A DNA stretch of 64,000 nt from Enterobacter hormaechei subsp. hoffmannii (GTDB lineage Bacteria; Pseudomonadota; Gammaproteobacteria; Enterobacterales; Enterobacteriaceae). Where the stretch lies: assembly GCF_001729745.1 (NCBI RefSeq), contig NZ_CP017186.1:3472001-3536000 (forward strand), given 5' to 3'. The notes under the pieces are model-generated. The model was not told the DNA's origin and searched no databases. It saw nothing but the letters and a program-made list of their open reading frames with translations. Made by a program: the position numbers and the translations under genes. Position 1 is the first letter of the stretch. Each line of letters begins with the position of its first letter. Of the stretch, positions 24,527-27,196 are shown piece after piece.

Positions 24527-25405
24527 TTATTTCATGCTGTTAGCGAGGGTATCCACATTGTGGCGAAACGCCTTGACGTAGGTGTCCGCCACGCCGCCCT
24601 TCGCGGACAGCGCTTCCGGGTAAAGTTCACCGCCCGGCTGGGCGCCCGTGGCGGTCGCGATCTGCTTCACCAGGCGCGGATCAAGCTGGTTTTCCATAAA
24701 CCAGGTTTTCACGCCGTCAGCTTTAATCTGATTGATGATCTCCGCTACCTGCGCCGCGCTGGCTTCACTCTCAGACGTCAGCCCCTGCGGCGCCATAAAC
24801 GTCACGCCGTAGGCGCGGCTGAAATAGCCGAAGGCATCGTGGCTGGTCAGCACTTTGCGCTTCGCCTGTGGGATGTCGCTGAAACGCTTTTTAGCCCAAC
24901 CGTCCAGCTGAGAGAGCTGCGTAATATAGGGTTTACCGGTAGCTTCAAGCGCCGCCGTATCTTCAGGATCGGCCTTCACCAGCCCTGAGAGAATATTTTG
25001 CGCATACAGCGCGCCGTTCGCCGCGCTGTTCCACGCGTGCGGATCGGTCACGGTTTTACCGTCCTCTTCCAGCGTGTGCGTTTTCACGCCGTCCGAAGCA
25101 ACCACCAGCTGGCCTTTGAATCCGGAGGCTTTCACCAGACGATCGAGCCAGCCCTCCAGCCCCAGCCCATTGACCACCACCACGTCAGCTTTACTCAACG
25201 CCGCGCTGTCTTTGGGCGAGGGTTCGAAAGTATGGGGATCACCGTCCGGCCCCACCAGCGTCGTCACCTTCACACGATCGCCGCCAACCTGCTGCGTGAT
25301 GTCTCCCAGGATGGAAAAGCTGGTCACCACATTAAGCGTTTTCGCCATTACGCCGTGCGTCATCATGCCGAGCGCGAGCGCCACGGCTAACCCTGTACGT
25401 TTCAT
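24527..25405 (-). CDS. Metal (probably zinc) ABC importer, periplasmic binding protein
   Basis: A 292-residue cluster A-I (ZnuA/PsaA/AztC-like) binding protein. The signal peptide MKRTGLAVALALGMMTHGVMA precedes KTLNVVTSFSILGD. Likely metal ligands are His58 (GDPHTFEPSP), His123 (TDPHAWNS), His189 (LTSHDAFGYF) and an acidic residue near Glu264 (LYPEALS). Three histidines favour zinc, since manganese or iron proteins of the family usually have Glu at the third position. It lacks the long His/Asp-rich loop of ZnuA. Last gene of a four-frame unit, 14 bases after the permease. E. coli K-12 has nothing here between pncC and mltB. Confidence 0.85.
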   Translation of the reverse strand: MKRTGLAVALALGMMTHGVMAKTLNVVTSFSILGDITQQVGGDRVKVTTLVGPDGDPHTFEPSPKDSAALSKADVVVVNGLGLEGWLDRLVKASGFKGQLVVASDGVKTHTLEEDGKTVTDPHAWNSAANGALYAQNILSGLVKADPEDTAALEATGKPYITQLSQLDGWAKKRFSDIPQAKRKVLTSHDAFGYFSRAYGVTFMAPQGLTSESEASAAQVAEIINQIKADGVKTWFMENQLDPRLVKQIATATGAQPGGELYPEALSAKGGVADTYVKAFRHNVDTLANSMK

Positions 25406-25419
25406 CGTTTCCCCTTGCG

Positions 25420-26280
25420 TTAAAAAAGCGCCCGCAGGCTATCCGCCAGCCTGCTGCGCGTGCCAAATAAAACGGAAATAAAGAACAATGCGCTGGCGGT
25501 CAGCACAATGGAGGGCCCGGCGGGCAGACTCACTGCCCAGGAAAGGCTTAAGCCCAGCCACGCGCAAAAAATACCGCTGATACCCGCCATCAGAAGTAAC
25601 CCTGGCAGGGTGCGCACCCAGCAGCGTGCCGCCACGGCGGGTAACATCATCAGCCCGACGGCCATCAACGTGCCGAGCACCTGAAAACCGGCCACCAGGT
25701 TGAGCACCAGCAGCGCCAGAAACAGACCGTGTAACATCCCGGGCAGCCAGCGCGCGTTCACCTGCAACCACGCGGTATCGAACGCTTCGCTGACCAGCCC
25801 ACGATAAAACATCGCCAGCGTGAGGAGCGTGAACATGCAAACGCCCGTCACGAACAGGGCTGACGCGCTATCCACGGCGAGAATGGAGCCAAACAGAAGA
25901 TGAAGCAGATCGACATTTGAACCGCGCAGCGACACCAGCGTGACGCCCAGCGCCAGGGAACCCAGGTAAAACCCCGCGAAGCTGGCATCCTCTTTAAGGG
26001 GCGTGCGGCGGCTGACCAGCCCGGCCACCAGCGCAACGGCGATCCCGGCAATAAACCCGCCGACAGTCATTGCCAGCAGCGACATCCCGCTGAGCAGATA
26101 GCCCACCGCGACACCCGGCAAAATGGCGTGAGAAAGGGCGTCCCCCATCAGGCTCATCCGACGCAGCTGAAGAAATACGCCCAGCGCAGTGGTGCTGACG
26201 GAGAGCGCCAGGCAAACCACCAGTGCACGGCGCATAAAGCCGTACTCAATAAACGGCTGGAAGAATGTATGCCAGATCAT
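25420..26280 (-). CDS. Metal ABC importer, ABC-3 type permease
   Basis: A 286-residue permease of the ZnuB/SitC/MntB family with about eight to nine membrane spans. The phrase RRMSLMGDALSHAILPGVAVGYLLSG (about 40-65) is the family hallmark. The ATG at 26280 overlaps the ATPase stop (ATGA), and the resulting N-terminus MIWHTFFQPF fits the family; an upstream in-frame ATG is inside the ATPase gene and less likely. It works with the adjacent ATPase and binding protein to bring the metal into the cytoplasm. Confidence 0.87.
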   Translation of the reverse strand: MIWHTFFQPFIEYGFMRRALVVCLALSVSTTALGVFLQLRRMSLMGDALSHAILPGVAVGYLLSGMSLLAMTVGGFIAGIAVALVAGLVSRRTPLKEDASFAGFYLGSLALGVTLVSLRGSNVDLLHLLFGSILAVDSASALFVTGVCMFTLLTLAMFYRGLVSEAFDTAWLQVNARWLPGMLHGLFLALLVLNLVAGFQVLGTLMAVGLMMLPAVAARCWVRTLPGLLLMAGISGIFCAWLGLSLSWAVSLPAGPSIVLTASALFFISVLFGTRSRLADSLRALF

Positions 26281-26930
26281 GCCACCCTCACCCGCTCGGT
26301 TTTCCATTGGGGAATATCAGCGTCCAGACGTAACGTCTGCGGGAAGTGACGTGCTACGCGCTCGCTGTCATGCAGAACCGCCAGCAGGGTCTGCCCCTGC
26401 ATATACATCTCCAGCATCAGATCCATCAGCACGTTGCAGGTCGCTTCATCGACGCCGGTGAAAGGCTCATCCAGCATCACCAGCGGCGCCTGCTGCACCA
26501 AAACGCGGGCAAACAGCATGCGCTGAAACTGGCCGCCGGAAAGTTCATCTATGGTAGAGAACGCCATGGACGCCAGCCCCACGCGCTCAAGCGCGCCGGC
26601 AATGCGCATGCGGGTATCCCGACGAAAACTGGCAAATAGCGAGATTGCTGGCCAGCAGCCCATGCTCACCACGTCCTGCACGGTCAGAGGAAATTGCGCC
26701 TCCAGCGCGTGACGCTGCGCCAGCCAGCCCACCACCGGACGTCTCCCCTGCCAGCGAAACGTACCGCTGACGGGCGGAAGAAAGCCAGCGAGCGTTTTCA
26801 GCAGCGTGGATTTGCCGCAGCCGTTGGCCCCGACGATGGCGGTCATGCTCCCGCGTTCAATCACGCCGGACAGTGCGCGCGTAACGGGCTGGCGATCGTA
26901 ACCCGCTACCAGGTCGTTCATCACGATCAT
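26277..26930 (-). CDS. Metal ABC importer, ATP-binding protein
   Basis: A 217-residue ABC ATPase of the Mn/Zn/Fe chelate group. Walker A is GANGCGKSTLLK (about 34-45), the Q-loop GWLAQRH, the signature ELSGGQFQRMLFARVL, Walker B PLVMLDEPFTGVD and the H-loop LAVLHDSERV. It is slightly shorter than typical ZnuC and has no C-terminal extension. Its ATG overlaps the stop of an upstream 35-codon frame by four bases and its own stop overlaps the permease start, so the unit is tightly coupled. Confidence 0.87.
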   Translation of the reverse strand: MIVMNDLVAGYDRQPVTRALSGVIERGSMTAIVGANGCGKSTLLKTLAGFLPPVSGTFRWQGRRPVVGWLAQRHALEAQFPLTVQDVVSMGCWPAISLFASFRRDTRMRIAGALERVGLASMAFSTIDELSGGQFQRMLFARVLVQQAPLVMLDEPFTGVDEATCNVLMDLMLEMYMQGQTLLAVLHDSERVARHFPQTLRLDADIPQWKTERVRVA

Positions 26931-27034
26931 GGCAACGCCACCGCCCAGCGCACGGCCAGGCCGAGAAACAGAATGAGCACCAGCGCCAGCAGCAGCCGAA
27001 CCGGGGATGAGAGAGAAAACAGGGACATGGACAT
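26927..27034 (-). CDS. 35-residue single-span membrane microprotein at the head of the metal ABC operon
   Basis: The frame starts at ATG 27034 (a second ATG two codons in) and reads MSMSLFSLSSPVRLLLALVLI, then LFLGLAVRWAVALP and stop. It is one clear hydrophobic span (about 13-32) with a short Ser-rich N-terminus and Arg residues at both ends. Its TGA overlaps the ATG of the ATPase gene (ATGA), the same coupling used inside the operon. It lies 17 bases downstream of a Zur-like dyad. The Shine-Dalgarno (GAATTGAG) is weak. Function unknown; it could assist the transporter or act as a leader peptide. Confidence 0.55.
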   Translation of the reverse strand: MSMSLFSLSSPVRLLLALVLILFLGLAVRWAVALP

Positions 27035-27050
27035 CTCAATTCAAAATTAT

Positions 27051-27063
27051 GTTATAACATAAC
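27051..27063 (-). promoter_or_regulatory. Zur-like operator of the metal ABC operon
   Basis: GTTATAACATAAC differs by one base from the core GTTATAATATAAC of the enterobacterial Zur box, and is embedded in the AT-rich dyad TTATGTTATAACATAA. It sits 17-29 bases before the microprotein start, where it would overlap a promoter. No MntR or Fur consensus is evident, which supports zinc control. By-eye match only. Confidence 0.6.
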
Positions 27064-27150
27064 AATAATGAAAGACGATTAAGATGTAAACGGCGGGAGT
27101 GAAATGGGAATGTGGCGAAATGTTTCTGCGGGAAACAGGTGCGGGCGGGT

Positions 27151-27196
27151 GCCCTCACCCCAGCCCTCTCCCACAGGGAGAGGGAGGCATAAGGGG
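27151..27196. repeat. GC-rich palindrome copy 2, near mltB 3' end
   Basis: CCCTCTCCC-ACA-GGGAGAGGG forms a nine-base perfect inner stem, with degenerate outer arms (CCCTCACCCCAG / CATAAGGGG). Same family as 7850-7896. It lies between the convergent or tail-to-head ends of mltB and the metal operon promoter. Confidence 0.75.

Follow-up and report, generated by a model that had tools for sequence, protein, structure and literature searches.

A conserved single-span small protein accompanies ZniCBA-type zinc importers in Pseudomonadota

A 35-codon frame that ends on the start codon of a zinc importer ATPase gene in Enterobacter hormaechei was followed through related genomes. Judged by its conservation and gene neighbourhood, its product accompanies ZniCBA-type zinc importers, with deep conservation and occasional loss. 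The ZniCBA-type transporter probably has a fourth part that has been overlooked. A sequence-only reading of the same DNA had proposed a membrane microprotein coupled to a metal importer; the frame proved to be real and to reach further than that reading had claimed. A zinc ABC importer is usually regarded as having three parts, a binding protein, a permease and an ATPase. If a fourth part exists, knock-outs, complementations and purifications of ZniCBA-type importers have been interpreted, and perhaps built, without this part of only 35 residues that was missed.

Results

A small frame precedes the zni operon

The window, by which the whole analysed stretch of 64,000 nucleotides is meant, carries the features listed in Table 1. 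The small frame was found exactly where the sequence-only reading had placed it, with its hydrophobic span predicted as one helix, and both the ATGA shared by its stop and the ATPase start and the same overlap at the ATPase/permease junction can be read on the minus strand. The last codons of the frame contain GCGGTGG, a weak ribosome-binding-like run before the ATPase ATG. Operon and dyad sit between mltB and pncC/recA. A repeat-like stretch, CCCTCTCCCTGTGGGAGAGGG, is found between mltB and the putative promoter at about 27150-27190 of the window. In sequence records the small protein is termed uncharacterised or hypothetical in K. aerogenes, Comamonas and Thioclava, and it is absent from the gene table of the E. 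hormaechei record, a table that is incomplete by its own description.

The 35-residue start assigned earlier holds in most loci but not in two of the nearest relatives (L002 and L003), where ATA replaces the first ATG; the second ATG, which gives 33 residues, may therefore be the start in that lineage.

Table 1. Features of the zni locus in the window (coordinates are window positions).
Feature	Position	Strand	Remarks
zniA-like zinc-binding protein gene (periplasmic metal-binding)	24527..25405	minus	best PDB relative 8svc, E 1e-151
zniB-like permease gene (ABC-3 family)	25420..26280	minus	start inside ATPase stop
ATGA overlap, ATPase stop/permease start	26277-26280	minus	
zniC-like ATPase gene	26277..26930	minus	AztA-like, under NCBIfam cut-off
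ATGA overlap, small ORF TGA with ATPase ATG	26927..26930	minus	
Small ORF, 35-aa single-span membrane protein	26927..27034	minus	108 nt, 35 codons + TGA; MSMSLFSLSSPVRLLLALVLILFLGLAVRWAVALP
Alternative start of small ORF	27028	minus	gives 33 aa
Zur-type dyad	27046..27063	minus	GTTATGTTATAACATAAT; ends 11 nt before small ORF
Putative promoter, second element TATTGT	27062-27067	minus	17 nt after TTTACA; touches Zur dyad
Putative -35 element TTTACA	27085..27090	minus	read by eye; inferred promoter

The importer is ZniCBA rather than AztABCD

Homology and gene order identify the importer of the window as ZniCBA, which was published as the second zinc ABC importer of Klebsiella pneumoniae and lies there at the same mltB-pncC site. 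PMC10797113 describes K. pneumoniae ZniCBA as a zinc-regulated importer that is induced by zinc starvation and encoded between mltB and pncC, and reports it in a subset of Enterobacteriaceae and its absence from E. coli. Megablast of the window operon against 20,395 E. coli records gave 0 matches at that sensitivity. PDB entry 8SVC, the best PDB match of the window's binding protein (Table 1), is K. pneumoniae ZniA according to PMC12183173. The order ATPase, permease, binding protein between mltB and pncC was found in the window and likewise in the E. hormaechei and K. aerogenes records, and the dyad of the window, a putative site of zinc/Zur control, recurs at other zinc-regulon genes of the genome.

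Membership in AztABCD was considered and rejected. The window proteins score below the NCBIfam cut-offs for AztA (202.1 against 220 bits), AztB (236.5 against 280) and AztC (275.1 against 350), and the binding-protein gene is followed by pncC instead of AztD, as read by eye in the window and found in a near relative. The small protein was also considered as a split-off piece of the permease and this too was rejected, ZniB having 286 residues compared with 285-303 in the 11 AztB proteins compared and its length showing no span that is obviously missing. Five positions separate ZniB from AztB (R26, S76, L77, A79 and D146, numbered in L150), too few for placing a binding site. Near its N-terminus ZniB reads FMRRAL; the first Arg of this motif occurs in 110/110 aligned Zni-type permeases (a frequency rounded to 1.0) and is Gln in 10 of 11 Azt-type permeases.

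The dyad resembles sites of other zinc genes

The dyad that had been described as Zur-type ahead of the small frame is there, and within the window it is a unique site at up to 3 mismatches, with 0 occurrences in 100 shuffles. Genes for rpmE2, zinT and znuA/znuC are classical Zur targets. The 15-bp core of the dyad, TGTTATRNTATAACA, was also located with at most 1 mismatch ahead of rpmE2-like, zinT-like and znuA/znuC genes of the same genome, the genes being read by eye. This core search of the genome gave 12 rows and its backwards control 4; one match (L293) lies amid genes with no obvious zinc link, and together with the control rows this means that some core matches are meaningless. A perfect copy of the core precedes a further binding-protein gene of the genome (L290, C1:1618333), a possible extra Zur target. 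A loose -35/-10 pattern is present at the place of the putative promoter in 56/113 loci of the detailed set described below. Since the putative promoter touches the dyad, the message would begin with the small frame.

The frame is under purifying selection

Among 28 genus sequences the last 33 codons of the small frame gave a dN/dS of 0.26, compared with 0.52-3.2 in the other five frames, so that the protein-level conservation expected of a genuine gene was borne out by the synonymous/non-synonymous ratio. The value was 0.26 for the first 22 of the 33 codons and 0.21 for the last 11, and the first thirty codons of the ATPase gave 0.14. In 31 loci from other genera the small frame gave 0.39 and the other frames 0.49-2.1. 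The ratios point clearly to purifying selection on the small protein, somewhat weaker than on the ATPase, and as the first 22 codons still give 0.26 the constraint reaches beyond the overlap region.

Chance formation of such a frame was evaluated on dinucleotide shuffles of the same upstream DNA. An ATG start, 30-52 codons, a membrane span, an Arg and a Trp separated by 16 residues (R-x16-W) and a TGA at +1 were found together in 107/113 loci and in 21 of 22,600 shuffles.

The frame is kept throughout genus and family

An orthologous ATPase was found in the window's genome and in 27 of 35 relatives of the same genus, and in all 28 genomes it is preceded by the frame with its TGA at the overlap. 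The zni operon is patchy in the genus: 8 of the 35 relatives lack a ZniC orthologue, their best matches reaching only 1e-23 to 1e-33 (G007, G011, G020, G024, G030, G032, G033 and G034).

The search of the family returned 133 ATPase places in 125 of 295 genomes, every one of which was examined and 3 of which were already in the genus count. The others comprised 27 loci, a group made up of 57 loci that have the frame and 2 Azt-type paralogues, 2 places (L126 and L145) and a remaining 42, which divide into 33 with the frame, 7 of the Azt clade and 2 Zni-type losses. Genus and family together thus amount to 159 places, 148 with the frame and 11 without. Nine of the 11 belong to the Azt clade or branch next to it (L119, L120, L346, L350, L353, L357, L361, L365 and L367) and the others are L351 and L366. 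An ATPase kept while the frame is lost, which the sequence-only reading had named as counter-evidence, is therefore not the general case, 148 of 150 Zni-type loci keeping the hydrophobic frame, but it does occur at these last two; Klebsiella and Kosakonia, two of the genera in which conservation had been proposed as a check, are included among the loci found by permease. Losses of the small ORF exist but are rare. Among genomes of at most 2.4 Mb with a match in the family search 12/13 keep the frame. One genome, G013, has a second zni-type copy (L064) besides its first, with an ATPase 65% identical to that of the window and with its own small ORF and dyad; it is counted among the 148. At L335 and L336 the frame is present and the ATPase is interrupted by an internal stop.

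A set of 113 loci was analysed in detail, 55 being all loci first returned and 58 coming from 60 chosen places (59 from the family search, 1 from the genus search). The stop is at +1 in 113/113, as ATGA in 112 and GTGA in 1, and the starts are ATG (108), TTG (3) and GTG (2); L104, from a genome that is 91% complete, has a GTG start and no ATG. R-x16-W occurs somewhere in all 113 proteins; counting back from the C-terminus, position -23 is R in 105 and position -6 is W in 108. In 33 loci added later R-x16-W was again invariant (33/33); 27 of them have the stop at +1 and 6 have it at another position.

Homologues reach beyond the family

When named genomes were scanned with an alignment of the permease, a hydrophobic small frame was located just ahead of the ATPase in 80/80 of the best 80 of 585 loci; 16 of these 80 repeat DNA of the 113. 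Within these best 80 the stop reads ATGA in 71, so that an overlap with an ATG is possible, and R-x16-W is present in 78, or in all 80 if a spacing of 15-18 residues is accepted. Their genera are Enterobacter, Lelliottia, Kluyvera, Klebsiella, Raoultella, Kosakonia, Trabulsiella, Hafnia, Rahnella, Pantoea, Erwinia, Pectobacterium, Serratia, Agrobacterium, Methylobacterium and, for one locus, Pseudomonas. Outside Enterobacterales R-x16-W was found in 43/54 homologues. One contig labelled Enterobacter ludwigii (L189) carries a Pantoea-like zni locus and is probably a mislabelled assembly.

A profile of the small protein gave only one strong match in the window's genome, the frame itself (E 5.6e-19; next 0.08). 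Across the order, with a profile that misses many family loci known to carry the frame, matches at E<=1e-3 were obtained in 27/394 genomes, all ahead of the ATPase and four outside the family, and across the class in 4/274, the three besides the window's own preceding the same kind of ATPase, in two cases with a zur-like gene alongside. At L147 and L148 (G783 and G903) a zur-like gene is immediately upstream of the small ORF and zni-type ATPase. A broader profile searched against 299 Pseudomonadota genomes gave 56 matches at E<=1e-3, each of which adjoins an AztB-like permease on comparison by hand, and 35 of the 56 matched genomes had contributed no row to the profile; 8 weaker matches adjoin no permease listed. 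A further 32 loci of the phylum sample (L246-L277) have the frame in 31 cases, L257 and L276 by eye. The L257 frame lacks R-x16-W, and that of L276, counted as present, stops 65 nt short of the position assigned to the ATPase start. The sampled Planctomycetota and Desulfuromonadales rows are metagenome bins, and the Planctomycetota label of L214 is doubtful because L214 is nearly identical to a Proteobacteria bin. From these neighbourhoods we conclude that the small protein follows ZniCBA-type importers across Pseudomonadota, a reach that the first reading understated.

The frame is missing from Azt-type loci

The small ORF was absent from 20/20 Azt-type loci examined, namely seven over the AztB cut-off, three alphaproteobacterial plasmid loci, one Klebsiella plasmid locus, L119, L120 and seven of the Azt clade. 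Ten Znu-like loci showed no frame with the pattern. A tblastn search of 89 loci with two AztD proteins gave 4 matches, exactly the four Azt loci without the small ORF, and none in the 85 loci that carry it, within the flank covered. Azt-type loci within Enterobacterales (L119, L120, L232, L346, L350, L353, L357, L361, L365 and L367), none with a small ORF, mostly have a Zur-like dyad close before the ATPase, and 8/10 are second copies beside the Zni type; L232 is on a Klebsiella pneumoniae plasmid and has AztD.

Losses among Zni-type loci are scattered. In the 1.0-Mb genome of L351 the small ORF is lost and the ATPase kept; L366 is a loss near a contig end, the locus starting 241 nt before the match; and the small ORF is also missing at L252 of the phylum sample, from a 1.5-Mb genome, and at L288. 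A dyad-like site is found directly ahead of the ATPase start at L366.

When mapped on a 113-row tree of the ATPase, in which 88 rows have the frame and 25 lack it, presence of the frame requires 2 changes, compared with a shuffled mean of 22.9, the bootstrap being unsettled. The Azt rows form one clade (99/87) inside a group in which almost every other member has the frame. A larger tree (126 rows), built by a quicker method and with long branches, requires 5 changes against 30.0 when shuffled. Eleven labels on the 113-row tree were set by eye, as the motif-based caller erred, mostly by forbidding charged residues in the span: L009, L026, L028, L069, L091, L092, L183 and L257 were changed from absent to present, and L001, L114 and L209 were already present by a wrong frame. 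The simplest history on these trees, with the root unfixed, would be that the frame arose once, was lost once in Azt and disappeared from a few other loci here and there.

The small protein is a predicted single helix

AlphaFold2 predicts a single helix over residues 5-33 with a mean pLDDT of 85.7. Summed over the 113 proteins, there are 191 K/R and 21 D/E on the N-terminal side and 4 K/R and 1 D/E in the last six residues. From this bias and the positive-inside rule we infer that the N-terminus is inside, with R13 at the inner face and W30 near the outer face. The window protein had no match in Pfam or NCBIfam and only a chance-level one in the PDB search (E 5.7), and 33 homologues that were scanned gave only weak family matches (E 0.0055-0.093), one member each and to a different family each time. 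The earlier statement that no such protein had been described for this importer class agrees with the literature searched, outside which most subscription journals fall; with that restriction on the literature, the small protein is both undescribed and without a match in the libraries searched.

Discussion

The small protein as a probable accessory subunit

The reading we favour, with somewhat better than an even chance of being right, is that the frame is a real gene and its product a single-helix accessory subunit of ZniCBA, N-terminus inside, packed on ZniB and required for full assembly or activity. What the sequences show is conservation, selection, hydrophobicity, linkage to this clade of transporters and the Zur-type dyad; translation, coupling, topology, binding to ZniB and an effect on transport belong to the proposed model. 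Zinc starvation would lift Zur, and transcription would begin at the dyad or immediately downstream of it, with the small ORF read first. Ribosomes that finish it could then start the ATPase at the ATGA overlap, so that both would be made together. The product would insert as one helix with its N-terminus in the cytosol and pack on the permease, where it may stabilise ZniBC or set its activity, as KdpF does for KdpFABC. That nearly all of the small genomes retain the frame speaks for a working part rather than for a regulator that can be spared. Counted against a subunit are the Azt-type relatives, zinc importers according to the literature, that do without the small ORF, the stops that lie off +1 in 6 of the 33 later loci and the non-uniform starts. 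The losses at L351, L366, L252 and L288 show that the small ORF can be lost.

Regulation, zinc sensing and other alternatives

The main rival, to which a real but clearly lesser chance is given, is that the small protein regulates the importer as a zinc-responsive brake or turnover tag on ZniBC when zinc returns, in the manner of regulatory membrane microproteins. Such feedback would fit co-expression with the target under Zur, and the four sporadic losses fit a dispensable part. It would also fit the homologues outside Enterobacterales, 8/54 of which, from four families, carry 6-15 His in a tail predicted to face the cytosol (L249, L253, L260, L261, L263, L267, L271 and L273; the longest, L267, has 76 residues), hinting at zinc sensing. 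These His-rich forms give a handle on the question whether cytosolic zinc is sensed by importers directly. The forms in Enterobacterales are however almost free of His, with 25 in 1870 N-side residues of the 113 proteins, and the constant R-x16-W core argues for a structural role, as does the frame's persistence in small genomes.

A wider evolutionary scheme, which we hold to be doubtful, would make the small protein an ancient zinc-sensing gate. Its helix would lie against ZniB while the cytosolic tail reads zinc and closes the pump, a trans-inhibition by a separate peptide; the tail would have been enlarged to a His-rich sensor in several lineages and the protein reduced to a fixed helix in Enterobacterales, and the sister Azt systems would have dropped the peptide and come to rely on AztD.

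It is unlikely that the frame serves as a leader only, its translation opening or coupling the ATPase start and the peptide being inert. The stop at +1 as ATGA or GTGA in all of the detailed loci and 27 of the 33 later ones is what a leader would give, and the weak ribosome-binding-like run ahead of the ATPase ATG fits as well. A leader needs no membrane span, no R-x16-W and no selection on amino acids, yet all of these are kept, the selection also in the first 22 codons away from the overlap. The Comamonas frame stops 34 nt short of the annotated start of the ATPase and still has the core. On the dN/dS values and the kept R-x16-W a pure leader was rejected.

That the peptide passes zinc on, its N-terminal tail taking the ion from ZniB and handing it on inside the cell, is very improbable: the His-rich tails outside Enterobacterales would suit it, but the protein of the window has no His and no Cys, and in 46/54 homologues the tail contains fewer than 6 His. 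That the frame arose by chance from the ATPase ATGA start can practically be dismissed, for although the second ATPase codon provides the TGA and 2396 of 22,600 shuffles contain some ATG-started frame of 30-52 codons, the shuffles that have every feature are few and deep conservation, dN/dS and the profile search all speak against it.

Comparison with known systems

The window shares its gene order and mltB-pncC site with K. pneumoniae ZniCBA. That operon is published as three genes, with no small ORF in the accessible text of PMC10797113, whereas the window has a fourth frame before zniC. The published K. pneumoniae and R. leguminosarum studies (PMC10797113, PMC12183173) describe operons of three genes and complementation with binding-protein genes, and therefore neither test nor exclude a fourth part. 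In Rhizobium leguminosarum ZniCBA is Zur-regulated, with a Zur box 153 bp before zniC compared with 41 bp for znuA, and the available portion of PMC12183173 mentions no small ORF. According to the same paper this species depends on one of its two zinc systems when the medium is zinc-limited. The 153-bp gap is long enough to hold about 40 codons, and the corresponding gap in Agrobacterium holds a 40-residue homologue. By analogy, promoter deletions made in R. leguminosarum may have cut such a frame, as the 88-bp truncation would end inside it.

KdpF is a membrane peptide of about 30 residues, likewise encoded and transcribed together with its transporter, a complex for cation uptake, which it is said to stabilise (PMC3618439 and the title of Gassel 1999, cited in PMC6255902). 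KdpFABC is a P-type ATPase and not an ABC transporter, and Pfam and NCBIfam tests gave no KdpF-type homology for the small protein; the likeness would nevertheless be one of working, with the small protein as a physical part of the complex. The gene for AcrZ, another small protein, is not known to lie in the operon of its transporter. AcrZ binds the membrane part AcrB and changes pump activity, as stated in PMC7267776; its partner is an RND efflux pump and it is likened here by description, without sequence comparison.

AztABCD of Paracoccus denitrificans and relatives resembles the window importer in having an ATPase and permease of the sister clade and a described function in zinc import, and in the loci inspected by eye Zur-like dyads precede aztA. 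It differs in having the small ORF in none of its loci examined and in AztD, which among the 89 loci searched occurs in just the four without the small ORF. The division between Zni, with its small ORF, and Azt would thus present two sister zinc importers with different accessory parts for the same problem.
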